Source: Pseudomonas sp. MM213
GTDB taxonomy: Bacteria > Pseudomonadota > Gammaproteobacteria > Pseudomonadales > Pseudomonadaceae
Assembly (NCBI RefSeq): GCF_020423045.1
Contig: NZ_CP081943.1
Span: 6,572,001 to 6,636,000 of the forward strand
Length of the DNA: 64,000 bases
Direction: 5' to 3'
Under the pieces are notes generated by a model, which was given only the letters and a program-made list of their open reading frames with translations, searched no databases and was not told where the DNA came from. Positions 6,462 to 61,866 of this stretch are shown piece by piece (positions within the stretch are counted from its first letter, which is position 1; each line of letters starts with the position of its first letter). The position numbers and the translations under genes are program-made.

Positions 6462-7058
6462 ATGTTTAAGCGGTTCATCGATATCAGTGCTTCATTGTGC
6501 GCCCTCATACTCCTGGCTCCCGTGATGGCTATCGTCGCCTGGAAAATCCGCAAGAAACTCGGGTCACCGGTTCTCTTCAGGCAGGTTCGTCCTGGTCGGG
6601 ACGGAAAACCTTTCGAGATGGTGAAATTCCGCACGATGCGTGATGCCGTGGATGCCGATGGCAATCCTCTGGCGGATTCGGAGCGAATGACCCCTTTCGG
6701 CAGTTTCCTTCGTGCCAGCAGCCTGGATGAGTTGCCGGAGTTGTGGAATGTCCTTAAAGGGGACATGAGCCTGGTCGGGCCGCGACCGTTGCTGATGGAG
6801 TACCTGCCTCTTTATAGCCAGCAACAGAGTCGCCGTCATGAGGCTCGTCCGGGTGTGACCGGATGGGCGCAGGTCAATGGCCGCAACGCGTTGGGTTGGG
6901 ATGAAAAATTTGAACTGGACGTCTGGTATGTCGACAACCAGTCTTTTTGGCTCGACCTCAAGATCATCTTCATGACGATCAAGAAGGTGGTCGTCAAAGA
7001 AGGTATCAGTGCGGACGGTGAAGTCACCATGTCCAAGTTCACCGGTAATAAACGATGA
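6462..7058 (+). CDS. PglC-like phosphoglycosyl transferase (bacterial sugar transferase)
   Basis: A 198-residue monotopic phosphoglycosyl transferase (PF02397) that moves a sugar-1-phosphate from a UDP-sugar to undecaprenyl phosphate and so starts O-unit assembly. The N-terminus has one hydrophobic re-entrant segment (about residues 6-26). The catalytic signature is seen in FRTM, SSLDELPELWNVLKGDMS and LVGPRPLL (the Asp-Glu dyad lies in DELPE), followed by RPGVTGWAQVNGRN. The short length without an N-terminal Rossmann and four-helix extension matches PglC rather than WbaP. It overlaps the acetyltransferase by four bases (ATGA), so the two are co-translated. Confidence 0.92.
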   Translation: MFKRFIDISASLCALILLAPVMAIVAWKIRKKLGSPVLFRQVRPGRDGKPFEMVKFRTMRDAVDADGNPLADSERMTPFGSFLRASSLDELPELWNVLKGDMSLVGPRPLLMEYLPLYSQQQSRRHEARPGVTGWAQVNGRNALGWDEKFELDVWYVDNQSFWLDLKIIFMTIKKVVVKEGISADGEVTMSKFTGNKR

Positions 7059-7681
7059 AAAGACTGGCGGTTCTCGGGGCTAGCGGGCATGGCAAAGTTG
7101 TCGCCGATACCGCGCAATGCTGCGGCTGGGATCAGGTGGACTTTTTCGATGACGCATGGCCCGGACTCACCAGTAATGGCAATTGGCTGGTAATGGGTGA
7201 TTCGGCGACGATGTACGCTCGACTCCAAAACTATCAGGGTGTCATTGTTGCAATCGGCGATAATGTTGTGCGACAGGCGAAGCTGAGGGCGCTGATCGAT
7301 GCGGCCGCGCCTGTCGTGTCATTGATTCATCCGGCGGCGGTCATCAGTCAATACGCGTCTCTTGGGGCCGGTTCCGTCGCTTTTGCCGGAGCGGTGGTCA
7401 ATGCCGACGCGAAGATAGGGTGCGGTGCGATCCTCAATACTGGCTCCAGCGTCGATCATGATTGCGTGTTGGGAGACTCTGTCCATATCAGCCCGGGTGC
7501 TCGATTGGCCGGCGCCGTGAGCGTAGGGGAGCGGAGCTGGATCGGAATAGGTGCCTGTGTGAGGCAATTGATCAGGATTGGCAGTGACGTTGTGGTCGGG
7601 GCGGGCGCGGCAGTGGTCAGCGATGTGGCTGATGGTGTAGCGGTTGCCGGTGTACCTGCCAAAGTCATTTCAACGATTTGA
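7055..7681 (+). CDS. PglD/NeuD-like sugar O/N-acetyltransferase
   Basis: A 208-residue left-handed beta-helix acyltransferase. It opens with the NeuD-family nucleotide-sugar binding motif LAVLGASGHGKVVADTA, followed by hexapeptide repeats. The proposed catalytic His (about H135) lies in SSVDHDCVLGD, and HISPGARLAG follows. PglD uses acetyl-CoA to acetylate the 4-amino group of UDP-4-amino-4,6-dideoxy-GlcNAc to give UDP-diNAc-bacillosamine. The neighbours here (PglC-, PglE- and PglF/WbpM-like) make that or a C4 epimer the best guess. It could also acetylate another amino sugar. Confidence 0.88.
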   Translation: MKRLAVLGASGHGKVVADTAQCCGWDQVDFFDDAWPGLTSNGNWLVMGDSATMYARLQNYQGVIVAIGDNVVRQAKLRALIDAAAPVVSLIHPAAVISQYASLGAGSVAFAGAVVNADAKIGCGAILNTGSSVDHDCVLGDSVHISPGARLAGAVSVGERSWIGIGACVRQLIRIGSDVVVGAGAAVVSDVADGVAVAGVPAKVISTI

Positions 7682-47664: not shown

Positions 47665-47754
47665 GGTGAAGTGTCCGAGTGGCTTAAGGAGCACGCCTGG
47701 AAAGTGTGTATACAAGAAATTGTATCGAGAGTTCGAATCTCTCCTTCACCGCCA
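47665..47754 (+). tRNA. tRNA-Ser (anticodon GGA)
   Basis: A 90-base class II tRNA. Acceptor arms GGTGAAG (47665-47671) and CTTCACC (47744-47750) pair, then G and an encoded CCA (47752-47754). The anticodon stem CACGC/GTGTG holds the loop CTGGAAA, anticodon GGA at 47699-47701. A long variable arm and the T-loop TTCGAATC are present. Confidence 0.97.
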
Positions 47755-48111: not shown

Positions 48112-49302
48112 ATGCAAAGCGTTTATTTGATCAGTAACGTCAATAATGGCGGAAAAACCTATCTTGAGTACTTGCTGCCAGCGCTAAATGCTCTTCGCAA
48201 TCACTACAACTGCATTGTGCTTCAGACAAATATTGTCGGTGTCAGCAAGTTTGAAGCAGAACAGTTTCTAGGCTGTCCAGTTGAAGAGGTGGGACTGGAT
48301 GATATTGGAAAACTGAAATCACAAGTAATTATCTCGAACGATGCTTCTATCGGGAAGTTAATTGATGAATCAAATTTTTCCATTTTTATTGCGCACGGCA
48401 ATGTAGGGATGCCCCTCGCGGATGTTTACTACTGTTCCGGCTGGACATCCTATTGGGATGCAATTGTTTCCTCCTCCAGATCGCTTTTTGATTTGATTAA
48501 AACAGGCATGTACTACTTCAGGCGAGACAGAGTCGCCTTGCGTCTGGAACTTGAACCGGACCGATCACGTACGGACCTTCGAAACACTAGTGCAGTATCC
48601 GTACTGCCCATCAAAATTCCCGACATGTTCAGCGCTCCCCCTGAGTTTCGGTGCATGTCCGAGGAGTATGTTGTTGGCCTTCTGCCTACCCAGATAGGTA
48701 TTTGCCCGAGTGGCGCTTCTCTGTTTGAAAACATGGAGGTAGTCATTAACTCGGTGAAATCCCAGATTCCTCATGCGAAGATTATTTTTCGGCCGTATAT
48801 GACGGATTTTGACCGTCCCTATGTAAAAGAGTTGTGTGAGCAACTTGCCCGGTATCCATGGGTTTCAATTGACGATACTAAAGGCAGCAGTAAAGACTTC
48901 TATCGGATATGTGACACGATCATCACTGATGCCTCCAGTGGTGGCGTGTCCTTTATGCTGAATACGTGCAAGCTGCCGATTTATTATGTTCCAGTGGGTC
49001 ACGATAGCAGTCCAATCGTCGAAGCCTGGCTGGAACAGATGGAGGGCTTGTTGCCGATCGCTAAAAATGGCGATGAGCTTAAGGATATGGTGCTTGGGTT
49101 TAAATTGCTTACTTCAGAGCAAAAGTACTTCATTTATAAGAAGTTCTACGACTCAGAGTACAGCGGGCTTCATCATCCGGATGAGGTGTTTCTTGAGTTG
49201 GTTGAAAGCCGACATGAGTCCCGTTTTCGTTACTGTGTGATCGACTCTTTTGGGGGCGCTCACGACAATTTCATTAGCGACCCTGAAAGAGCGCTGCAAT
49301 GA
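48112..49302 (+). CDS. GT-B transferase resembling CDP-glycerol glycerophosphotransferases; candidate phosphoramidate transferase
   Basis: A 396-residue soluble protein with the pattern of the TagF-like superfamily (PF04464). An N-terminal lobe has YLISNVNNGGKTYLEYLLPAL and FIAHGNVGMP; the C-terminal lobe has AKIIFRPYMTDF and the donor-site motif CDTIITDASSGGVSFML, like the TagF ITDYSS loop. Such enzymes move phospho-groups from CDP donors to sugars. At the head of an operon that should make a CDP-linked phosphoramidate donor, it is a fitting final transferase, or else a glycosyltransferase for the acceptor sugar. It is AT-richer than the rest of the operon. It overlaps the next gene by four bases (ATGA). 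Confidence 0.7.
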   Translation: MQSVYLISNVNNGGKTYLEYLLPALNALRNHYNCIVLQTNIVGVSKFEAEQFLGCPVEEVGLDDIGKLKSQVIISNDASIGKLIDESNFSIFIAHGNVGMPLADVYYCSGWTSYWDAIVSSSRSLFDLIKTGMYYFRRDRVALRLELEPDRSRTDLRNTSAVSVLPIKIPDMFSAPPEFRCMSEEYVVGLLPTQIGICPSGASLFENMEVVINSVKSQIPHAKIIFRPYMTDFDRPYVKELCEQLARYPWVSIDDTKGSSKDFYRICDTIITDASSGGVSFMLNTCKLPIYYVPVGHDSSPIVEAWLEQMEGLLPIAKNGDELKDMVLGFKLLTSEQKYFIYKKFYDSEYSGLHHPDEVFLELVESRHESRFRYCVIDSFGGAHDNFISDPERALQ

Positions 49303-49880
49303 TCGTGAGTAACTTCCAGGCTCCCAGTGTTGATATGAATACCTCTATTGGCGAGGTCGTGTGGATTACCGGTTTGTCGGGTGCCGGTAAATCAACGCTG
49401 GCCCATGAGCTTGTTGCCAGGCTTAGAAGCGATGGTCATCCGGTTGTCATGCTGGATGGAGATGAACTGCGTGATGTGTTTGGCGCAAGTGCGGCCAATG
49501 CGCAAAACCACGGGCGTGAAGGGCGGTTGGCGCTGGCCATGCAATACGCTCATTTATGCAGGGTCATAGCGGCGCAGGGGTTCACGGTGGTGATCGCCAC
49601 GATTTCGCTGTTCCGCGAAGTTCATGCGTGGAACCGTGCCCACCTGCCTGGTTATTTCGAAATCTATTTGAAGGTGCCGATGGAGGAGCTGCGCCGTCGG
49701 GATCCCAAGGGCATCTATCGCCGGTTCGATGCGGGCGAGTTGCACAACGTCGCGGGGCTCGATTTGTCGATTGATGAACCGGGCGCGGCGGACTGGGTGG
49801 TGGAGTTCGACCCCCACCGCCCTCTATCTATGTTGACTGATGACTTACTGCACCATTTTTATAAAAGGAAGTTGGTATGA
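49299..49880 (+). CDS. APS kinase-like kinase; proposed CDP-diphosphoramidate kinase (Cj1415-like)
   Basis: A 193-residue P-loop kinase (PF01583-like). Walker A is GLSGAGKSTLA, DGDELRDVFG follows, and the lid region is IATISLFREVHAW. The region that binds APS in true APS kinases (FSxxDRxxNIRR) is replaced here by NHGREGRLALAMQ, and no sulfate-activation gene is nearby. In C. jejuni the homologous position is filled by Cj1415, which phosphorylates the 3' hydroxyl of CDP-diphosphoramidate. That role is inferred from family and operon context. It overlaps both neighbours by four bases. Confidence 0.8.
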   Translation: MIVSNFQAPSVDMNTSIGEVVWITGLSGAGKSTLAHELVARLRSDGHPVVMLDGDELRDVFGASAANAQNHGREGRLALAMQYAHLCRVIAAQGFTVVIATISLFREVHAWNRAHLPGYFEIYLKVPMEELRRRDPKGIYRRFDAGELHNVAGLDLSIDEPGAADWVVEFDPHRPLSMLTDDLLHHFYKRKLV

Positions 49881-50626
49881 AAACGGAATGGGATTACACC
49901 ACACTGGCTGACGCTTACTTGAAGCGTCCTGACTACGCCGATGCTGCGATCGATGCAATGCTTTCGATTGCAGGCGCCGAGAAAGGCGACAAGTTCTGCG
50001 ACGTTGGCGCCGGGGTTGCGCACCTGACCTTAATGTTGGCTGCGCGAGGCCTGGATGTTGTTGCGGTGGAACCTAATGATGCGATGCGAGCGAATGGCAT
50101 CAAGCGTACCGCGGACCTGACTCATGTCAGTTGGCATGAAGGCACAGGCGAAGTAACAGGGCAGCAGTCGCAAGCCTTCGACATGGTCACTTTCGGCAGT
50201 TCCTTCAATGTCTGTGACCGTGAGCAGGCTCTCAAGGAAACCGCGCGCATTCTCAAGCCGCGAGGCTGGTTCGCCTGTATGTGGAATCATCGTCATCTTG
50301 ATGATCCTGTCCAGGCCCGAATTGAAGCGATCATTAAAGAACGGGTTCAGGGTTACGGCTACGGTACTCGTCGTGAAGATCAAACTGCGGTGATTGATGC
50401 CAGTGCGCTATTCGGTCCTGTTGTTCATCTTGATGCGCGTGTCATTCACGAACAAACCATTGAAGAATGTCTGGAGGCGTGGCGTTCTCACGCAACGCTT
50501 GAGCGTCAGGCCGGTGCGAATTTCCATGAGGTAATTAGCGCAATCGATGACTATTTGAAGGGCCTGGGGACTGCCTCGATCCAGATTCCGTACTCAACCA
50601 ATATCTGGGTTGCTCAGCTGAGATAA
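49877..50626 (+). CDS. Class I SAM-dependent methyltransferase; candidate phosphoramidate O-methyltransferase
   Basis: A 249-residue methyltransferase. The SAM site is FCDVGAGVAHLTLMLAARG, with the acidic residue ending strand 2 in VVAVEPNDAMR, and TFGSSFNVCD as motif IV. It belongs to the UbiE/SmtA-like group. In the C. jejuni pathway a methyltransferase (Cj1419/Cj1420 type) adds the O-methyl group to the phosphoramidate. It could also methylate a sugar. It overlaps the kinase gene by four bases and is five bases before the glutamine kinase-like gene. Confidence 0.78.
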   Translation: MKTEWDYTTLADAYLKRPDYADAAIDAMLSIAGAEKGDKFCDVGAGVAHLTLMLAARGLDVVAVEPNDAMRANGIKRTADLTHVSWHEGTGEVTGQQSQAFDMVTFGSSFNVCDREQALKETARILKPRGWFACMWNHRHLDDPVQARIEAIIKERVQGYGYGTRREDQTAVIDASALFGPVVHLDARVIHEQTIEECLEAWRSHATLERQAGANFHEVISAIDDYLKGLGTASIQIPYSTNIWVAQLR

Positions 50627-50631
50627 TCCTG

Positions 50632-52947
50632 ATGGCTCTGCGATTTTCCACCAAGGCCGGTACGCTTGCCGGCCTGCAAGAGCGGCTGACTTCGGCGCGC
50701 ATTGCTCCGTTGCTGTCTTTCACCGTAAGGGATTGGCAAATGGGCCGGCAAGCCTGTTTTCGCGACATTCAGGGACGCTTGGACGCCGGCCCCTGGATCG
50801 TGCGCTCCAGTTGTCTGCGCGAAGATGGCGTACAAGCATCCGGTGCGGGGGCGTTTCTCTCTGTACTTGACGTCAATGAAGCAGGGTTGGAATCGGCGGT
50901 TGAACAGGTCATCGCCAGTTATGGCGATGCCAACCAGGCAGACGAAGTTCTGATTCAACCGATGTTGAGTAATGTCGTTCGGTCCGGCGTTGCCTTCTCC
51001 CACGACCCGAATACCTGTGCGCCCTATCGGGTGGTGAACTGGACGGAGGGCCGTGACACCGCCTCTGTCACTGGCGGTCTGGGTGGCCGGCTTTGGCAGC
51101 AGGCGGCCCACAGCAAAGTGCCGCCACCGCCAGATATGCTGCCCGTCGTGACCTTGCTCGAAGAGTTGTTGGAGTTGTTCGAGGGGGTGCCGGTCGACTG
51201 TGAGTTCGCTGTCACGCGGGAGGCTGAAGGCGAGGTGTTGTGGTTATTGCAAGCCCGACCACTGATTTTGCCAGCACGCCCGGAATCCGAAACAACTCAA
51301 GCCGATCGGCTGGAAAATATTCAACGCAAGGTGGCGCGGGGCATGCGACCGCACCCGTTCCTGATCGGCCAGCGTACCGTTTATGGTGTGATGCCGGACT
51401 GGAACCCGGCCGAAATTATCGGTATCCGTCCCAAACCACTGGCGCTTTCGCTTTACCGGGATTTGGTGACTGACTCGATCTGGGCCTATCAGCGCCATAA
51501 CTACGGCTACCGCAACTTGCGCAGCTTTCCGCTGATGCCGCATTTTTTCGGGCTGCCGTACATCGATGTTCGATTGTCTTTCAACTCGTTCATCCCGGCA
51601 GACCTGGATGAGGGGTTGGCGGGGCGTCTGGTCGATCACTATATCGATCGGCTGCTGTCCGAGCCGACGCTGCACGACAAAGTGGAGTTCGAGATTGTGT
51701 TCTCGTGCTACACACTGGATTTGTCGCAGCGACTGGAGCGCCTGGCCAGTGCCGGTTTCCTGGAGCATGAACTGGAGGCCATCAGCAGCAGTTTGCGCAA
51801 GTTGACCAACCGCATCGTCCATCCCAAGGATGGCTTGTGGCGCGCTGATGCCAACAAACTCGATACGCTGAATGCGCGACGTGAGGCATTGCTGGCCTCC
51901 AACGCCGACCCTCTGGAGCGGATTTACTGGCTGTTGGAGGATGCCAAACGCTACGGGACCCTGCCATTCGCCGGTCTGGCCCGCGCCGGCTTCGTCGCGG
52001 TGCAGATGCTCAAATCCCTGATGACGGTGGGCGTGCTCTCGCAGGCTGACTACGATTGTTTCATGGGTGGGGTGTCGACTGTCAGCGGCCAGTTGGCGCG
52101 TGACCGCGCGACATTGGACAAGGCGACGTTCCTCGCGCGCTACGGCCACTTGCGCCCGGGCACCTACGACATCCTTTCGCCTCGCTACGATGAAGCGCCG
52201 GAACTTTACTTTGACTGGACTCAGCGCCCGTCCGTCCCGGAGCCCGTACAACCGTTTTCGCTGACCCTTCCACAAATGCGCGAAATCGTGAAGCAACTGG
52301 AGTCACACGGCTTGCAGCCCGACCCCGTCGGCTTGCTGGACTTCATGCAAGCAGGAATCGAGCTGCGCGAGCTGGCCAAGTTCCACTTCACCCGCAATCT
52401 CTCGGATGCCCTGGCATTGATCGCGCAAGTGGGGGCGCAGCACGGCATCAGCCGTGAAGACATGGCCTATTGCGACATCAGTGTCTTCAAGGAACTGCAC
52501 GTTGCGGCAGCCAACACGAGCGATGTGCTGTTGCGCAGCATTGAGCAGGGCAAGGCCCGCCACGCAGAGACACTAAAGGTATCGTTACCGCCGGTGATCA
52601 CCCGGCCTGAGGATGTCTGGTCTTTCGAATGGCCGGAAACAGCCCCCAACTTCATCACCCAGAAGCAGGTGACTGCCCCCGTGGTGGGCAGTGACGACCG
52701 AGAAATACTCGCCGGCGCGATTGTCTGCATTCCCAACGCGGACCCCGGGTTCGACTGGTTGTTTGCCTACCCGATTGCCGGGCTGATAACGGCTTGGGGC
52801 GGCGCGAACTCGCACATGGCGATTCGTGCAGGAGAACTTGGCTTGCCGGCAGTGATCGGTGCCGGCGAAGTCCTCTATCGGCGCTGGTCGGCGGCTCAAC
52901 GCTTGCACCTGGATTGCCCGGGGCGCTGCGTGGAGATGCTGGCATGA
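50632..52947 (+). CDS. PEP synthase-like L-glutamine kinase (Cj1418-like)
   Basis: A 771-residue protein with the parts of PEP synthase or pyruvate-phosphate dikinase: an N-terminal ATP-grasp domain (SSCLREDGVQASGAGAFLS, then GGLGGRLW and WLLQARPL) and a C-terminal swivelling domain with the phosphohistidine segment TAWGGANSHMAIRAGELG (about H728). The PEP/pyruvate TIM-barrel is absent; the middle is a different helical region. Cj1418 of C. jejuni, of nearly the same length and layout, phosphorylates the amide N of L-glutamine. Gene order to the hydrolase and cytidylyltransferase also matches C. jejuni. It overlaps the next gene by four bases. Confidence 0.85.
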   Translation: MALRFSTKAGTLAGLQERLTSARIAPLLSFTVRDWQMGRQACFRDIQGRLDAGPWIVRSSCLREDGVQASGAGAFLSVLDVNEAGLESAVEQVIASYGDANQADEVLIQPMLSNVVRSGVAFSHDPNTCAPYRVVNWTEGRDTASVTGGLGGRLWQQAAHSKVPPPPDMLPVVTLLEELLELFEGVPVDCEFAVTREAEGEVLWLLQARPLILPARPESETTQADRLENIQRKVARGMRPHPFLIGQRTVYGVMPDWNPAEIIGIRPKPLALSLYRDLVTDSIWAYQRHNYGYRNLRSFPLMPHFFGLPYIDVRLSFNSFIPADLDEGLAGRLVDHYIDRLLSEPTLHDKVEFEIVFSCYTLDLSQRLERLASAGFLEHELEAISSSLRKLTNRIVHPKDGLWRADANKLDTLNARREALLASNADPLERIYWLLEDAKRYGTLPFAGLARAGFVAVQMLKSLMTVGVLSQADYDCFMGGVSTVSGQLARDRATLDKATFLARYGHLRPGTYDILSPRYDEAPELYFDWTQRPSVPEPVQPFSLTLPQMREIVKQLESHGLQPDPVGLLDFMQAGIELRELAKFHFTRNLSDALALIAQVGAQHGISREDMAYCDISVFKELHVAAANTSDVLLRSIEQGKARHAETLKVSLPPVITRPEDVWSFEWPETAPNFITQKQVTAPVVGSDDREILAGAIVCIPNADPGFDWLFAYPIAGLITAWGGANSHMAIRAGELGLPAVIGAGEVLYRRWSAAQRLHLDCPGRCVEMLA

Positions 52948-53558
52948 AAGTCGTTGCCCTCAGCCAGCGTGTGGACGTATTTCCCGAGCGTGGTGAAAGC
53001 CGCGATGCAATTGACCAGCGTCTGATCAGCTTTCTACTGGATGCCGGCTTTTTGCCGGTGCCGGTACCCAACGGGTTGTGTCTGCAAACCGCTGACGGAC
53101 GGCTGACTCAGGACGCCCTGCATGACTGGCTGCACACGGTATCGCCACAAGCCATTGTGCTTTCGGGGGGAAATGACATCGGCCAGTGTCCGGCGCGCGA
53201 TCTGACTGAAGGCAGATTGCTTGCCCATGCACGATCCCTCTGCCTGCCCGTGCTTGGAATTTGCCGGGGCATGCAGATGATTGCGCACTGGTCGGGCGGC
53301 GAGCTGAAAGCGGTGAACGGTCATGTGCGAACCCGGCATGAACTGTCAGGAAAAATCGTTGCCGAGGTGAACAGTTATCACGGTTTTTCGCTTGCCGCTT
53401 GCCCGGAAGGTTTTGAGGTCCTGGCGTGCAGTGGGGATGGGGAAATTGAAGCCATCCGGCACCGCAACCTCCCTTGGGAGGGCTGGATGTGGCATCCGGA
53501 GCGAGAGGACGTCTGGGCTGCGCACGACGTTCATCGACTGAAGCAATTGTTCGGTTAA
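52944..53558 (+). CDS. Class I amidohydrolase, proposed gamma-glutamyl-CDP-amidate hydrolase (Cj1417-like)
   Basis: A 204-residue peptidase C26/PuuD-type protein. The nucleophile Cys lies in GICRGMQMIAHWSGGEL and the His-Glu pair in MWHPERED. Cj1417, of similar size, hydrolyses the gamma-glutamyl group of CDP-L-glutamine to give cytidine diphosphoramidate and glutamate. The gene sits between the glutamine kinase-like and cytidylyltransferase genes, as in C. jejuni. The start at ATG 52944 overlaps the previous stop (ATGA). The alternative call, a polyamine-catabolic gamma-Glu-GABA hydrolase, has no support from neighbours. Confidence 0.82.
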   Translation: MKVVALSQRVDVFPERGESRDAIDQRLISFLLDAGFLPVPVPNGLCLQTADGRLTQDALHDWLHTVSPQAIVLSGGNDIGQCPARDLTEGRLLAHARSLCLPVLGICRGMQMIAHWSGGELKAVNGHVRTRHELSGKIVAEVNSYHGFSLAACPEGFEVLACSGDGEIEAIRHRNLPWEGWMWHPEREDVWAAHDVHRLKQLFG

Positions 53559-53586
53559 TAAAGACATTTCATGAGGTAGGACTGTT

Positions 53587-54300
53587 GTGAAAGCCATTAT
53601 TCTGGCTGCCGGACGTGGCAGCCGCATGAAAAGTCTCACGGATGAACGTCCGAAATGCATGGTCGAATTGCGTGGCAAGACACTGCTGGAGTGGCAACTT
53701 TTGGCGCTGCGCGGTGCAGGCATTAGCGAGATAGCCATCGTGACCGGCTACAAGCGCGAGGTGTTGGCAGACCAAGGGCTGATCGAGTTCCATAATCCTC
53801 GCTGGGCGCACACCAACATGGTCTCCTCATTGGCGTGTGCTGAAGCCTGGTTGCAGGATGCTCCGTGCATCGTGAGTTACTCCGACATCTTTTACAGTCC
53901 CGCAGCAGTCCAGTCGTTAATGACATGCAAGGCTTCCCTGGCCGTCACCTATGATCCGAACTGGCTGGCGCTCTGGACACAGCGCTTTGGTGATCCGTTA
54001 CTGGATGCCGAAACGTTCCGCCTTGCCTCTACCGGCACCTTGACCGAAATCGGCAATAAACCGACATCAGTCGATGATGTTCAGGGTCAATACATGGGGC
54101 TTCTACGCTTCACGCCTGAGGGGTGGGCAGAGGTCGTCCGGCTTCGCCAGGCCTTGACCCCGGAACAAAGAGACAAGGTGCATATGACGAACACGCTTCA
54201 ACACGTCATTGATGCGGGGCGGGTGCCGATACACGCCGTTGCATACACTGGAGAGTGGGGAGAGGTGGACTCTTCAGAGGATCTCTTTGTGTATCAATAA
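53587..54300 (+). CDS. LicC-like cytidylyltransferase; proposed phosphoglutamine cytidylyltransferase (Cj1416-like)
   Basis: A 237-residue nucleotidyltransferase. The nucleotide loop is ILAAGRGSRMKSLTDERPK, the metal-binding Asp lies in SYSDIFYSP, and the substrate end has SVDDVQGQYMGLLRF and a C-terminal GEWGEVDSSED. It resembles choline- and phosphonate-type cytidylyltransferases and Cj1416, which joins CMP to phospho-L-glutamine. It begins at GTG 53587 with AGGTAGGA upstream and ends the operon. No phosphonate (PepM) gene is nearby, which favours the phosphoramidate route. Confidence 0.83.
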   Translation: MKAIILAAGRGSRMKSLTDERPKCMVELRGKTLLEWQLLALRGAGISEIAIVTGYKREVLADQGLIEFHNPRWAHTNMVSSLACAEAWLQDAPCIVSYSDIFYSPAAVQSLMTCKASLAVTYDPNWLALWTQRFGDPLLDAETFRLASTGTLTEIGNKPTSVDDVQGQYMGLLRFTPEGWAEVVRLRQALTPEQRDKVHMTNTLQHVIDAGRVPIHAVAYTGEWGEVDSSEDLFVYQ

Positions 54301-54345
54301 TTGAGGTTCAGGCCTTGAGTGACTATTTATGAAGAAGGAATGCCC

Positions 54346-54666
54346 ATGATCACCACCACCACCCACGCCATCGAAGGCCGCCAAATCACTGCTTACCTCG
54401 ACATCGTCAGCGCCGAGTCGGTGCAGGGTGTCAACGTTATCCGCGACATGTTCGCCGGGATGCGGGATTTTTTCGGAGGGCGCTCTCAAACATTGGAGCG
54501 TGCATTGAAGGAGGCGCGGATTCAGGCCACCGACGAGATCAAGGAACGGGCTCGGGCGCTGCAGGCCGACGCGGTGGTGGGGCTCGATTTCGAGATCAGC
54601 ATGCCGGCCGGCAAGGGCGGCATGGTGGTGGTATTTGTGACCGGGACGGCCGTCAAACTGAGGTGA
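54346..54666 (+). CDS. YbjQ-family (UPF0145) protein
   Basis: A 106-residue homolog of YbjQ (DUF74/PF01906), a small pentamer-forming cytosolic protein of unknown function. The motif VQGVNVIRDMFAGMRDFFGG followed by ATDEIKERA and DAVVGLDFEI is diagnostic. The start at ATG 54346 has GAAGAAGGAA upstream; it is probably transcribed separately from the preceding operon. Confidence 0.85.
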   Translation: MITTTTHAIEGRQITAYLDIVSAESVQGVNVIRDMFAGMRDFFGGRSQTLERALKEARIQATDEIKERARALQADAVVGLDFEISMPAGKGGMVVVFVTGTAVKLR

Positions 54667-56599: not shown

Positions 56600-56992
56600 T
56601 TACCCAGCAAAAGACTCAAGCCAGCGCTTGTAAAAATCACGTTGTTGTTCAATGTCATTTGTAATGTCGGCTACTTCATAATCAAAAATATTGACCAGGT
56701 CGTCGGGTCCGGCTGGTTTACCCAATTGAAGCTCATACGCTACTACTCCTGCAGACATTTGCGAAGACATGCTGGATGGGTGCACGTTGAGTTTGGCGCC
56801 CTTGCATAAAAACTTTGTTTCCGGGTAGTCCGCTCGCAACATCCCAAAGCAAACATACAGATCAGAGCCTGAGTATGTTTTTCTTACGCCGTTTTCCAAA
56901 ACTAAAGTTAATGAACGGATTCGTCGGTCGCATTCGATCACTACCTTATTAATGGTGCCCTGAGTATCCGTGGTTATTTCTACTATTTTCAT
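56600..56992 (-). CDS. Putative immunity protein for the Rhs toxin
   Basis: A 130-residue soluble protein with no recognised family. It starts four bases inside the end of the rhs gene (ATGA overlap), the usual place of a cognate immunity gene in a polymorphic toxin locus. Its base composition is AT-rich like that of the toxin tip, unlike the Rhs core, which suggests that tip and immunity gene moved in together. The product should neutralise the ADP-ribosyltransferase tip; this is inference from position. Confidence 0.65.
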   Translation of the reverse strand: MKIVEITTDTQGTINKVVIECDRRIRSLTLVLENGVRKTYSGSDLYVCFGMLRADYPETKFLCKGAKLNVHPSSMSSQMSAGVVAYELQLGKPAGPDDLVNIFDYEVADITNDIEQQRDFYKRWLESFAG

Positions 56993-59900
56993 GGCAGCTT
57001 TCTGTTTGGGTTGGGAGTTGAGTAACCTTTGTAGGTACCATCGGCGTGCACGGGGGTAACGCCGAGGATGTATTTGCTATCGACTCCACCTGGCATGGCA
57101 ATTTCAGCCTCACCTTTATGAGGCGAGAGTAAACCTAGCTTTTTGTTCACATCTATCCCTTTGATGTTTTTTATTACGTACACAAAACCGTCTTCAAATC
57201 CGTAACCAGTGGCGAATTTTATAGCCTCCTTTTCAGAGGTAGTGGTGCTGACAAAAAAACTGGGAGGGCTTCGGTTGTCGCGTGCGTGCAAGTAAAGATC
57301 AATACTGTCTCCCAAAGGCTCAAATCCAGTCTCAAAAATTTCCGAGGATTCCCTCGCGTCTCCTCGGTACAAGTAACGTTTATTAGTTTTTGGGGTTGGG
57401 GTTGGGGTGGCAGGCTCTCCTGCATCACGTTTCACTTTCCCCGCCGGATCCTCAACCCCCTCAACCGACCCGCACCCACCCATCCCCGGACAATCACTCA
57501 ACCCCAACGGATCAACCCACCCCGTGGGGCTCAACACGTACCGATACCCGTTCAGGCCACCGGCCAATCCGACCGGGTCCGGCGTCAGATACCGTCCCAC
57601 ATCCGGCTGGTAATACCGATGCCGGTTGTAGTGCAAGCCTGTTTCCGGGTCGAAGTACTGTCCCTGAAACCGCAGCGGCTGGTCGAGGATCTGGTGGGTG
57701 TCCCGGTTGAGGCGGGTGAGGCGGCCGTAGGCGGTGTATTGGGCGGACCAGACGATTTCGCCGCTGTAATCGGTGAGTTCTTGCGGTGTGCCGAGGTGGT
57801 CGAGTTGGTAGTAAAACGGGCAGGCGTTGCGCGGGCCTTTGCCGTCGAGCATGGCCAACGGGCGAAAGCTGCCGGGTTCGTAGACGTAGCTGCGGTAGTG
57901 CTCGCGACTGCTTTCGGCGACGAGGTTGTCGCCCTGCCAAAAAAACTCGGTGGTGTTGCCGTCGACGTTTTTGCTGATGCGACGGCCGAAGGCATCGTAG
58001 CGGTAGATCGCCTGGCTGCCGTTGGGCAGGGTGATGCCAATCAGGCGATGCTGGCAGTCGTAACGGTACTCGGTGACCAGTTTTTGTGCAGTGCCGCGGC
58101 ATTCGCGGATCAGGTTGCCGAAGGCGTCGTAATCGTAGTGGCGGTCACCTTGCATCAGCAGGCGATTGCCTTTGACCATGGCCGGACCGGGGCGGTCCTG
58201 CATCAGCAGGTTGCCGGTCGGGTCGTGGGCGAAGTTTTCCGGTTGGTGATCTCGGGAGTGGCGGACGCGGATCAGGCGATCGAGCGAATCGTAGAGGTAG
58301 CTGCGCTGACCGTGCCGCGTGTCGGCAATGTGGTCGAGGTTGCCGTTGGCGCTGTAGGCATAGTCGCGGCGATACAGCGGTTGCAGGTTTTGCCGGACAG
58401 CGTGGGCGTTCAGTCGACCTTGATTGTCATACTGATAATCGCTGAGCAGCAGGCCCTGTTGACGGTTCTGTTCGCGGCCGGCGAAAAAGGTGTGAGCGGT
58501 CAGTCGGGCGCCATTGAGGTCAATGGCCGTCAGCGCGCCACCCTTGGCATGGTGGTAATCGAGTTTGCTGTTGTCGGGCAGGCACAAGTGGTTGAGCTGG
58601 CCACAGGCATCGTAGCCATATCGCAGCGTGCCCCAGCCTTGGTGTTCGGTGACTAGCCGACCCTGTTTGTCGTATTCGAACTCCAGCGGGTGATCGTGAC
58701 CGTCATCGACGCTGACCAGCCGGCCAAGGCTGTCGTAGCGATATTCGACATTGACACCGTCGGGCAGCGTCTTGACCAGCAGCCGTCCCGTCGAATCACG
58801 TTGATAGCCCGTGACCCATTGCGAGCCGTCGTCGCCGAACTCGGTTTTTTTCAGCAACTGTCCATTGAGGTCGTAGGCATACGCGGTGCGTTGGCCATCG
58901 AATCCGGTTTCCTGTCGGATCAATCCATTGAGCGTGTAGTCCAGCAGATATTTACCGCCGGACTCATTCTCGATTTCGGTCAGTAACAACCGTGCGTTGT
59001 CGTACCGATAAAGCAGTTGTGTGCCATCGGGATTGATCCGGCGGCTGACCAGATGCAGATCATCGGCATATTCAAAGCGCGTGGTGCGCCCCAGTTCATC
59101 CCGTTCGGCGGTGACCTTGCCGTAGGCGTTGTAGCTGAAGGTGCGACTGGCACCTGTAGGAAGCGTCGTCTGAATCAGTCGTCCTACGGCATCCCATGAG
59201 TAGCGAGTGACGGCACCGTGTTCGTCCTGGCGGGTAACCTGCCGGCCCAACGCATCGTAGGAAAAGCGCCGTTGACCGCCACCCGGCAAGGTCTCTTCGA
59301 TCAGTTGACCCAAGGCATTCCGGACGAACACATGCCGACTGTTGTCCGGAAAGCGGATCGACAGCAGCAGGCCTTTTTCGTCGTGGTGGTAGTGGGTGAC
59401 ATGCCCCTCGGGGTCGGTCGCCTCGATGACCTCACCCTGAGCATTGCGCTGATACTTCCACACGGCGTTGCCGCGATACCGCGCATGCAGGAAACCATTG
59501 CGGTATTCGTAGGACGTTGGCTCACCTTCGGGTGGAATCAGGGCAATCAGCCGTCCGACATCGTCATAGCGGTAGCGGGTAATTGCCCCGAGCGGATTCT
59601 TTTCGGCAATCAGCCGCCCCTGGCTGTCATAGACATTGAGGTGTTCCGCCCCGTCGGGTTCGACTCTCCGCACCAGGCGTGCCCGGTCGTCGTGCTGGTA
59701 AAACGCTTCGCTGCCATCAACGTTTTTAACCTGCACGCCGCCGTTGTCATCCCAGGCATAGCGCGTGTCCATCTGCGAAAACGACGCCCAATGTCGGACG
59801 CATCGCGCAGACTTGCCGGACCTTTCCCACTCCCAGAAGAAGCTCGCGCCACCAGCCAATTGCCGCTGCAGGATGACGTGCTGGTCGTCATAGTCGTAGC

Positions 59901-61866
59901 GTTCGCTTTCGCCGGCGGCGTTGGTCGCTTCGATCAAGCGATGACAGGCGTCGTAGCGGTAGGTCACCAATGTCTGTTCAGTGCGCCAGGTATCTTCCAG
60001 GGTGTCGGCGGGATGAAAGCGCTGATACTCGACGGCGGCGAGGTGTCGGCGGTCGTAGCGCAATCGCAGCGAGCGTCCGGCACCGTTGTCGAGGCGCATG
60101 ATTCTGTCGGCGTTGTCCCGTTGCACTGTCAGACGGTTGCCATAGGCATCGCTGATTGCTGTCAGTCGACCTGTACGGAAGTGGTAGAAACGCGTCGCTT
60201 CGCCTGCCATTGCGAGGATCAGTTCCTCCGGCTCATCCCCCAGGAAAATCGCCGCCCGCGACAGGCTGTTATGAATGTTCGGACGTTCAACCTTGGGCAA
60301 AGGGAAGGTCGTACGACGGTTTTCGTGGTCGATCCAGCTAACCTGTTCACCGTCGATTTCCAGCCGATGTGCAAGGGCATGACTCCAGCCAAATCCGAGC
60401 CCACAGTCGATTCCGACAGCACTGGTGCGATACACGCGGATGAACTCGAACGGCAACCGCCCATCCAGCGAACCATCGATCAGGGTCAGCAGTTCTTCGC
60501 CGGTGACCATCGATACCGGGCAGCCGTTGGTTGTGGTTCTATCCGCTGAATCGACGTTGTCGCCGTTTGGGTTTTGCGCGGGAGCAGGGGCGTCGTCGCG
60601 GTGTTCCTGGCGGCTCAGGCGGGTCTTGGCTTCGGACTTGTCACGGGCAAGGGCGACCGGGTTGTTCACCCGCACAATCGGTGATTCACCGGTGGTGATG
60701 TGCAACGGAGTCGCCGGCACGGGTTTGAGCGGCACGTTCCGCGCGTTGACCATCAGCGGTTTGAGGGCGCCGGCGTGGTGGGTCAGATCCGATCTGTTCG
60801 CAAGCTCAGCCAGGCGCAAACTCGCGGCAGCCAGCCATTGTCGGGCTCGCTCGGACTTGATCTTGCCCAGCACCTTGGCGCTGATGCCGAGTTTCAGGCC
60901 TGTAGGACCTGTGAGGCGCACCAGCAGGAAAGCGATGAGTATTTCTGTACGAATTTCCGCGACCACTTCGGCGATGTACTGCGGCGGCAACATCCGTAGC
61001 CAACTGGTGAAAGCCGCGAGATGAATGAACATCAACGGCTCATCACTCAACACCAGCATCACATTGGCGATGGCTTCGGCCGGAGCGTTCAGCAGAGTCT
61101 CGAGTTCAACCTCGGTCAGGTATTCAAGAAGCTTTTCACTATTGGCCTGCAGGTCCGCGATCAGGGCGTAGATCTGCTTTACGTCATCCCACAAACCGTG
61201 CAGCGACTTCTCGAATCCGCGCCAGTCGGCCCGTTGCAGCATGCCGTAGCGTTCAGGGAAAACGGCCTCGGAAAACCCCGCCCATAAAGGCTGGAATTCA
61301 CTCGTCCACTCGTTGCGCAACCAGCCTTCAAGCTCATCGATCACGCTGTGATAGGAGGCATGAAGCGCCTGGACATGAGCGGTGGAAACATTGGGAAAGA
61401 ATGTGATGCGGTAACGATGACCGCGCCAACACTCAGGGATTTCGAGGATGCCGCTGGGGCCGATGGTGTGATGCACCGGTTCGCCAAAGGTCATCTCGCC
61501 GTTGCTCTTTTCAATGATCGGTTCGAGCATCACCGGCGTATCACCAATGGGCACAAAGCGAGCCGCGTCGAACATATGCACGAGGGTCAACGGGCCGCTG
61601 GCCGGGCATCTGGCGATCGTCGAACTGACGGGGGCGGTGGAATCCCTCGGTGTGCTCAAACGAACGTCGTTGCCGACCTTGAACACTTGCTCGACATCCA
61701 GCGCCCATCCTGTCCAGAAGCTTTCCGCCCAGGCCTCGTAGTCGTTGAGGCACAGGCGAAAATCGCCGAGCAGTGCTTCAACGTCCGGTTGCTCGGGGTT
61801 CATGGCTGCCACTACCAACAGGCCGATGGCGTTGTTCAAGGCCAGGACCTTGTCAGGGTTGAACAT
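56989..61866 (-). CDS. Rhs polymorphic toxin with cholera toxin-like ADP-ribosyltransferase tip
   Basis: A 1625-residue protein. Residues 1-430 are an uncharacterised helical N-terminus; about 440-520 is a DUF6531-like domain (VSMVTGEELLTLIDGS); about 540-1400 are YD repeats that build a cocoon; the core ends at about 1456 with the autocleavage-type TGWVDPLGL. The 169-residue tip carries YRGDARESSEIF (R1501), FVSTTTSEK (S1540), YVI, then LGLLSPHKGEAEIAMPGG (E1586/E1588): the same motif order as cholera toxin A1 (YRAD, STS, SPHPDEQE). It probably ADP-ribosylates a target after delivery, perhaps by a type VI secretion system; no delivery gene is nearby. GGGA precedes ATG. Confidence 0.9.
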   Translation of the reverse strand: MFNPDKVLALNNAIGLLVVAAMNPEQPDVEALLGDFRLCLNDYEAWAESFWTGWALDVEQVFKVGNDVRLSTPRDSTAPVSSTIARCPASGPLTLVHMFDAARFVPIGDTPVMLEPIIEKSNGEMTFGEPVHHTIGPSGILEIPECWRGHRYRITFFPNVSTAHVQALHASYHSVIDELEGWLRNEWTSEFQPLWAGFSEAVFPERYGMLQRADWRGFEKSLHGLWDDVKQIYALIADLQANSEKLLEYLTEVELETLLNAPAEAIANVMLVLSDEPLMFIHLAAFTSWLRMLPPQYIAEVVAEIRTEILIAFLLVRLTGPTGLKLGISAKVLGKIKSERARQWLAAASLRLAELANRSDLTHHAGALKPLMVNARNVPLKPVPATPLHITTGESPIVRVNNPVALARDKSEAKTRLSRQEHRDDAPAPAQNPNGDNVDSADRTTTNGCPVSMVTGEELLTLIDGSLDGRLPFEFIRVYRTSAVGIDCGLGFGWSHALAHRLEIDGEQVSWIDHENRRTTFPLPKVERPNIHNSLSRAAIFLGDEPEELILAMAGEATRFYHFRTGRLTAISDAYGNRLTVQRDNADRIMRLDNGAGRSLRLRYDRRHLAAVEYQRFHPADTLEDTWRTEQTLVTYRYDACHRLIEATNAAGESERYDYDDQHVILQRQLAGGASFFWEWERSGKSARCVRHWASFSQMDTRYAWDDNGGVQVKNVDGSEAFYQHDDRARLVRRVEPDGAEHLNVYDSQGRLIAEKNPLGAITRYRYDDVGRLIALIPPEGEPTSYEYRNGFLHARYRGNAVWKYQRNAQGEVIEATDPEGHVTHYHHDEKGLLLSIRFPDNSRHVFVRNALGQLIEETLPGGGQRRFSYDALGRQVTRQDEHGAVTRYSWDAVGRLIQTTLPTGASRTFSYNAYGKVTAERDELGRTTRFEYADDLHLVSRRINPDGTQLLYRYDNARLLLTEIENESGGKYLLDYTLNGLIRQETGFDGQRTAYAYDLNGQLLKKTEFGDDGSQWVTGYQRDSTGRLLVKTLPDGVNVEYRYDSLGRLVSVDDGHDHPLEFEYDKQGRLVTEHQGWGTLRYGYDACGQLNHLCLPDNSKLDYHHAKGGALTAIDLNGARLTAHTFFAGREQNRQQGLLLSDYQYDNQGRLNAHAVRQNLQPLYRRDYAYSANGNLDHIADTRHGQRSYLYDSLDRLIRVRHSRDHQPENFAHDPTGNLLMQDRPGPAMVKGNRLLMQGDRHYDYDAFGNLIRECRGTAQKLVTEYRYDCQHRLIGITLPNGSQAIYRYDAFGRRISKNVDGNTTEFFWQGDNLVAESSREHYRSYVYEPGSFRPLAMLDGKGPRNACPFYYQLDHLGTPQELTDYSGEIVWSAQYTAYGRLTRLNRDTHQILDQPLRFQGQYFDPETGLHYNRHRYYQPDVGRYLTPDPVGLAGGLNGYRYVLSPTGWVDPLGLSDCPGMGGCGSVEGVEDPAGKVKRDAGEPATPTPTPKTNKRYLYRGDARESSEIFETGFEPLGDSIDLYLHARDNRSPPSFFVSTTTSEKEAIKFATGYGFEDGFVYVIKNIKGIDVNKKLGLLSPHKGEAEIAMPGGVDSKYILGVTPVHADGTYKGYSTPNPNRKLP

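Follow-up and report, generated by a model that had tools for sequence, protein, structure and literature searches.

The six-gene cassette described here lies in a 64-kb window of the genome of Pseudomonas sp. MM213 (NZ_CP081943.1, positions 6572001-6636000 of a 6.75-Mb one-contig genome), and is predicted to direct the synthesis and transfer of a methyl phosphoramidate group. Reading of the open reading frames (ORFs) of the window established that the six genes are intact, run in one direction (+ strand) and occupy positions 48112-54300, as the first-pass annotation of this DNA had described: three of the junctions are 4-bp overlaps and the remaining two are gaps of 5 and 28 bp. The first gene (48112..49302), which is the most diverged of the cassette and has a low G+C content (0.459), encodes a TagF-like protein of 396 aa with a GT-B fold, the predicted phosphoramidate transferase. 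It is followed by genes for an adenosine phosphosulfate (APS) kinase-like protein of 193 aa (49299..49880), the predicted CDP-phosphoramidate 3'-kinase of the Cj1415 type, for an S-adenosylmethionine (SAM) methyltransferase of 249 aa (49877..50626), the predicted phosphoramidate O-methyltransferase, and for a 771-aa enzyme of the glutamine kinase (Cj1418) type (50632..52947). The last two genes encode a class I glutaminase-like hydrolase of 204 aa (52944..53558), the predicted gamma-glutamyl-CDP-amidate hydrolase (Cj1417 type), and a LicC-like cytidylyltransferase of 237 aa (53587..54300), the predicted CTP:phosphoglutamine cytidylyltransferase (Cj1416 type). For the hydrolase, the ATG at 52944, which overlaps the preceding stop codon, is a more plausible start than the mechanically listed TTG at 52794.

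The products of these genes were compared with the Pfam and NCBIfam models. The 771-aa protein had been noted as resembling a phosphoenolpyruvate (PEP) synthase with an ATP-grasp and a phosphohistidine domain and without the barrel; it carries only an N-terminal ATP-grasp domain (PF01326, PPDK_N) and a C-terminal phosphohistidine domain (PF00391, PEP-utilizers mobile domain), and the PEP/pyruvate-binding barrel of PEP synthase was not found in it by Pfam. Its score against NF004508 is 1001.6 bits (cut-off 501), versus 43.6 bits for the best PEP synthase model of NCBIfam, and the C-terminal His728 is invariant in the 11 glutamine-kinase relatives aligned (11/11). We take NF004508 to contain Cj1418 and the conserved histidine to be its nucleophile. 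No homologue of the glutamine kinase was found in the PDB by single-sequence search, and a glutamine-kinase profile recovered PEP synthases and enzyme I at no more than 73.6 bits. The hydrolase, called as a Peptidase_C26/GATase domain in agreement with the C26-type amidohydrolase of the first-pass annotation, has NF045546 (gamma-glutamyl-CDP-amidate hydrolase) as the top model among 18,950 in NCBIfam (89 bits over residues 69-193, below cut-off; next model 56.6 bits). The same model came first for the hydrolases of 10 other glutamine-kinase loci (10/10, 89-126 bits, 0/10 above cut-off), and Cys107, His184 and Glu186 are invariant in the seven sequences aligned (7/7). The kinase, with its APS_kinase domain call, falls into PRK05541 (NF004041, 219 bits versus a cut-off of 127), of which Cj1415 is presumably a member; it scores 98.6 bits against PF01583, to which three other genes of the genome match more strongly (209, 173 and 167 bits). 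The cytidylyltransferase has a MobA-like NTP transferase domain (PF12804, 72 bits) and its top PDB sequence match is 1jyk, a CTP:phosphocholine cytidylyltransferase, which bears out the LicC-like call; no specific NCBIfam model matched it. The methyltransferase belongs to Methyltransf_11 (PF08241, 52 bits). Judged by these scores, the four proteins fit the Cj1415-Cj1418 type of chemistry better than PEP synthase, gamma-aminobutyrate (GABA) hydrolase or the APS kinase of sulfate assimilation, the families that had been named as alternatives, and a correspondence of the four genes to the Cj1415-Cj1418 route to 3'-phospho-CDP-phosphoramidate is supported at the sequence level.

To see how widely the module occurs, a one-genome-per-species scan was made with the glutamine-kinase alignment; it confirmed at least 534 relatives, of which the best 80 were inspected (loci with L numbers below). 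The 80 enzymes are 47-88% identical to that of the window and, to judge by the titles of the loci, include ones from Pseudomonadota, Verrucomicrobia, Bacteroidetes, Kapaibacterium, Balneolaceae, Prochlorococcus and Planctomycetes, as well as from Nitrospina, Acidobacteria, Sericytochromatia, Obscuribacterales and Firmicutes; metagenome bins, in which contamination is possible, account for many of these loci. No Campylobacter locus was among these best 80, nor among 40 of 84 plasmid records. With profiles built from the 80 loci, partner genes were sought at distances of up to 7 kb from the glutamine kinase: the hydrolase was found in 77, the cytidylyltransferase in 76, the kinase in 75, the methyltransferase in 68 and the transferase family in 22. 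By these profiles no partner gene lies near the glutamine kinase of L007 (a short locus) or of Cupriavidus L016. All five biosynthetic genes are present in 62 of the 80 loci, a co-occurrence beyond chance, and 47 loci have the order kinase, methyltransferase, glutamine kinase, hydrolase, cytidylyltransferase. The kinase is fused to the glutamine kinase in five loci (L086, L089, L092, L094, L097) and the glutamine kinase to the hydrolase in L017, whereas in L005, L014 and L018 a cytidylyltransferase-like domain lies N-terminal to the glutamine kinase. Ten loci (L025, L026, L031, L035, L037, L041, L058, L064, L084, L089) have a clustered phosphatase gene inside the operon or close to it. The 3'(2'),5'-bisphosphate nucleotidase CysQ is the best NCBIfam model for nine of the ten phosphatases, above cut-off in two; that of L089 is slightly better as a histidinol phosphatase, and that of L026 is Inositol_P in Pfam. 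The fusions and the CysQ-like nucleotidase genes support a single pathway, and since CysQ-like genes suit a pathway that releases 3'-phospho-CMP, they also hint independently at the kinase step. The pathway proposed by the first-pass annotation is retained in a refined form, as a widespread one whose glutamine kinase has relatives encoded in at least 534 genome stretches.

Several further features were seen at these loci. In the three loci with an N-terminal cytidylyltransferase-like domain (L005, a short locus, L014 and L018) neither the kinase family nor the methyltransferase family was found nearby; these loci perhaps represent a variant pathway. A large protein of 905-1485 aa (some copies cut by the locus end) is encoded near the module in L033 (8990-13369) and in eight other loci; that of L033 has three glycosyltransferase family 2 stretches. 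Carriage by phages was considered and set aside. L017 (MT837632) is deposited as an unverified faecal bacteriophage and looks like a bacterial chromosome, with thioredoxin-reductase-like and MurC-like genes, named from their translations with no family search, beside the fusion; in viral contigs, 1 of 22 pattern matches was confirmed, at 31% identity.

The transferase is the gene for which the first-pass annotation was upheld in part. The TagF family label of the window protein did not hold directly, as is told below, but it has indirect backing: PF04464 is above cut-off in 7 of 13 other transferases (three close members, nine distant ones and one syntenic protein outside the family), namely in the distant L029, L030, L035, L037, L042 and L063 and in the syntenic L014; the Pfam match is absent from the distant L054, L058 and L074 and from the close L019, L024 and L031. 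No PF04464 protein was found in the window's own genome, and a PDB sequence-profile search with the transferase gave nothing convincing. In an AlphaFold model (mean predicted local distance difference test score, pLDDT, 91.1) the protein adopts a GT-B fold, and TagF and TarL rank near the top of the structural matches, so that the predicted fold resembles that of TagF. In L021 (Pseudomonas sp. ANT_J12) an in-frame stop splits the cassette transferase (6465-7652) into pieces of 193 and 189 aa; the other five genes of that cassette match like those of intact cassettes.

We then compared the genes of eight intact Pseudomonas cassettes with those of the window (METHYLTRANSFERASE); L021, whose copy is broken, and L031, from Ensifer, do not enter the means. 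Mean identity is 90.2% for the methyltransferase, 86.3% for the glutamine kinase, 84.1% for the cytidylyltransferase, 77.6% for the kinase, 71.6% for the hydrolase and 60.3% for the transferase. As an enzyme acting on a constant group is expected to be conserved and one acting on a variable sugar to be variable, this pattern fits P-O-methylation. The methyltransferase gene adjoins the module (less than 150 bp away, same strand) in 55 of the 68 loci that have it. On the strength of these comparisons the methyltransferase, called correctly as a SAM methyltransferase from the start, is a strong candidate, and a direct one, for the phosphoramidate P-O-methylase. Across L019-L098 the methyltransferase scores form two groups, high in 40 loci and lower in 28, with one of each in L027; the groups may represent separate subfamilies, by analogy with C. 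jejuni and its two methyltransferases.

The cassette is bordered on the left by a tRNA-Ser(GGA) gene (47665..47754, +; ARAGORN) and on the right by ybjQ (54319..54666, +; PF01906, 112 bits), at a tRNA-to-ybjQ distance of 6.56 kb. A ybjQ match is present in 24 of 59 Pseudomonas genomes; in 8 of the 23 besides the window's own, tRNA-Ser(GGA) directly precedes ybjQ at ∼140-740 bp, and in the remaining 15 no tRNA-Ser(GGA) lies within 1.5 kb of the ybjQ locus. The insertion site is thus empty in eight other genomes, two of which (G016 and G047) carry the cassette elsewhere. This comparison of sites shows the cassette to be an insertion between tRNA-Ser and ybjQ. The cassette lies likewise behind tRNA-Ser(GGA) in L019, L021 and L023; L024, L032, L051 and L055 share a different upstream gene, ComM-like (Pfam, L024), and different neighbours again are present in L020, L022 and the Ensifer locus L031. 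The related Ensifer cassette (glutamine kinase 73% and transferase 32% identical), together with a glutamine kinase that is 76% identical in a Verrucomicrobiales bin versus 58% in another Pseudomonas, points to horizontal movement. A classical integrase island was considered and rejected, as no repeat of the tRNA-Ser 3' end was found elsewhere in the window. Beyond ybjQ, the window encodes a 1625-aa RHS-repeat protein (56989-61866, -) whose C-terminal domain is Scabin-like and of the ADP-ribosyltransferase type (76.9 bits); a 130-aa ORF with no Pfam match abuts this gene and could be an immunity gene.

Taken together, these results lead us to propose that the inserted cassette builds 3'-phospho-CDP-phosphoramidate, methylates the phosphoramidate and uses the TagF-like enzyme to place the group on a surface glycan, most probably the flagellin glycan of this strain; we put the probability of this reading at about 0.6. 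The roles of the individual C. jejuni enzymes are reportedly those of glutamine kinase (Cj1418), cytidylyltransferase (Cj1416), hydrolase (Cj1417) and kinase (Cj1415). By this model, the 771-aa kinase would phosphorylate the amide nitrogen of glutamine via His728, the cytidylyltransferase would couple phosphoglutamine to CMP, the Cys-His-Glu hydrolase would cleave off glutamate to leave CDP-phosphoramidate, and the APS-kinase-like enzyme would add a phosphate at the 3' position. The methyltransferase would supply the O-methyl either before transfer or after it, and the GT-B transferase would pass the group to a sugar hydroxyl with release of 3'-phosphorylated CMP, which a CysQ-type nucleotidase could recycle. 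The first four steps are modelled on the published C. jejuni reactions, as given in the available part of PMC11800397; the last two, and the acceptor, are proposed from gene association.

The first-pass annotation had left the acceptor as an O-antigen or other glycan. A surface glycan is kept as likely, and from the flagellar and pseudaminic acid (pse) context of the relatives we judge a flagellin glycan likelier than an O-antigen. In L060, flgJ, flgK and a Flagellin_N gene come immediately before the operon, and clustering placed the same families before the operon in L061, L062, L063, L067, L068 and L079 (single members missing in L063 and L067). In the Aeromonas dhakensis and A. piscicola reference genomes (L053, L054) the cytidylyltransferase end of the module adjoins pseC and pseB (534-550 bits, above cut-offs). 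In the genome of the window itself, PseI and further pse-type genes are flanked by two Flagellin_N genes at 6387-6411 kb, ∼210 kb from the cassette. The cassette transferase was found in 11 of 298 Pseudomonas genomes, with the other five genes seen in four of these, the window included; PseI is above cut-off in all 11, versus 111 of the 298 overall (P = 1.4e-5). The genomes reached through the loci also have PseI in 9 of 9 Pseudomonas, at least three of these nine being the same as in the 298. In A. piscicola AH-3, the available text of PMC7874193 describes a flagellin glycan made of N-acetylhexosamine (HexNAc) with variable additions of +80 (phosphate) and +14 (methyl), and deletion of island genes between pseC and luxC fits the loss of most of the glycan (PMC7874193). 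By analogy, this suggests that the AH-3 phosphate and methyl may be a phosphoramidate, the module having been seen in the A. piscicola reference genome.

Several observations weigh against this pathway or its acceptor. The link to Cj1415-Cj1418 was made through family models, and the window hydrolase scores far below the NF045546 cut-off (89 versus 250 bits), which makes this its nearest family and not one of which it is a curated member. The window transferase has no Pfam or NCBIfam match, PF04464 included, its direct phmmer matches to the distant members are weak (E values of 3e-4 to 0.07), and several other GT-B enzymes score as well as TagF in the structural alignment, the fold being common to many. 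Among close relatives the PseI association falls to 9/9 versus 56/73 (P = 0.078), a comparison in which kinship may explain most of the effect and the 73 relatives were picked by eye with a crude marker (FadB identity of at least 90% among the matches listed); the association was therefore dropped as proof of a flagellin acceptor. The Ensifer genome with the related cassette has no PseI. P-N bonds are acid-labile. The AH-3 oxonium ion at m/z 284.1 fits plain phosphate (+80) instead of phosphoramidate (+79), barring hydrolysis of the P-N bond (PMC7874193, available text). Flagellin glycan is the preferred, unproven acceptor, with lipopolysaccharide (LPS) as its main rival. An LPS (O-antigen or core) or exopolysaccharide acceptor for the same pathway would suit a cassette that is unlinked to the flagellar island, the unmethylated phosphoramidate mentioned for the LPS of Xanthomonas campestris and Shewanella (PMC3907429, in the part available), and the partial relative in L018, a polysaccharide locus with neuC and genes for a sugar transferase and a polysaccharide tyrosine autokinase alongside; the flagellar and pseudaminic acid contexts of the related Pseudomonas and Aeromonas operons speak against it, as does, with the caveat of kinship, the presence of PseI in every transferase genome, and we regard it as a serious, if rather unlikely, alternative.

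The methyl group raises a separate question. The methyltransferase genes near the C. jejuni pathway are, we assume, Cj1419 and Cj1420. According to the available text of PMC11800397 these have no assigned function, and their knockouts had no apparent effect, a further point against phosphoramidate methylation; if the methyltransferase here acted instead on the sugar, the group transferred would be unmethylated phosphoramidate. The 12 of 80 loci without a methyltransferase within 7 kb, some through contig ends or on short contigs, would agree with this, but the methyltransferase is the most conserved gene of the cassette, whereas the transferase, which would meet the sugar, is the most variable, and the gene is kept across phyla; sugar methylation is thus improbable in our view. 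More improbable still is a diffusible P-N small molecule of the phaseolotoxin or agrocin kind: the cassette stands alone, and no glycan-locus gene is present among the annotated flanks of the window, L019, L020, L022, L023, L024 and L031, which counts against a glycan acceptor as well; yet neither a peptide or amide ligase nor an exporter is among the products of the six genes, and the first encodes a predicted GT-B transferase whose distant relatives match the polymer-modifying enzymes of PF04464. That the genes are what single annotations call them, an unrelated PEP synthase, APS kinase and GABA hydrolase that are neighbours by chance, has next to nothing in its favour beyond the source annotations, which do name a PEP-utilizing enzyme or phosphoenolpyruvate synthase and so conceal the pathway, as the first-pass annotation had warned; the lacking barrel, the family scores, the conserved clustering and the fusions contradict it.

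A wider proposal, which we hold only tentatively and at somewhat less than even odds, is that methyl phosphoramidate is a widespread, horizontally moving surface tag with its own O-methyltransferase and sometimes CysQ, that it is carried by flagellin glycans of Pseudomonas and Aeromonas, and that it, or its hydrolysis product, explains the phosphate and methyl of AH-3. This published flagellin glycan is open to immediate re-examination. The glutamine kinase was called C. jejuni-specific in a 2022 review (PMC9561416, available part), a label that contrasts with the at least 534 genome stretches encoding a relative. According to the same text, many C. jejuni phages recognise O-methyl phosphoramidate (MeOPN; PMC9561416), so that a mobile cassette adding MeOPN could alter how sensitive other bacteria are to phages and how their surface is recognised. 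Among open-access PMC titles, the top matches listed hold no report of a phosphoramidate pathway in Pseudomonas or Aeromonas.

MeOPN is established in Campylobacter (PMC3907429, available text), and in C. jejuni Cj1415-Cj1418 convert glutamine, ATP and CTP to CDP-phosphoramidate 3'-phosphate (PMC11800397, available text). The window cassette shares with this capsule pathway the glutamine kinase, cytidylyltransferase, hydrolase and APS-kinase-like kinase and a separate transferase (Cj1421 and Cj1422 there); it differs in lying outside an annotated glycan locus, with the TagF-like transferase first and the kinase near the front of the operon. TagF/TarL and the A. pleuropneumoniae capsule multienzymes, CDP-alcohol phosphotransferases of PF04464, resemble the cassette transferase in the GT-B fold and the expected CDP-linked donor, and several distant members of its family match PF04464; unlike them, the window protein has no direct Pfam match, its phosphoramidate donor is a predicted one, and the structural alignment gives the same score to other GT-B enzymes. 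The group II polar flagellin glycosylation islands of Aeromonas (PMC7874193) are a further point of comparison: the module stands directly beside pseC-pseB in the A. piscicola and A. dhakensis reference genomes, whereas the window cassette is far from its own pse genes, and the available text reports no P-N bond for Aeromonas (PMC7874193). A MeOPN cluster has also been predicted in Borg elements of archaea (PMC12660748, available part); likened by its description, it too places predicted phosphoramidate genes outside Campylobacter, but it is extrachromosomal, archaeal and predicted from structure. Set against these systems, the chemistry of the cassette is known, and what is likely new is its stand-alone inserted form, the TagF-like transferase, the conserved methyltransferase and probably the acceptor.

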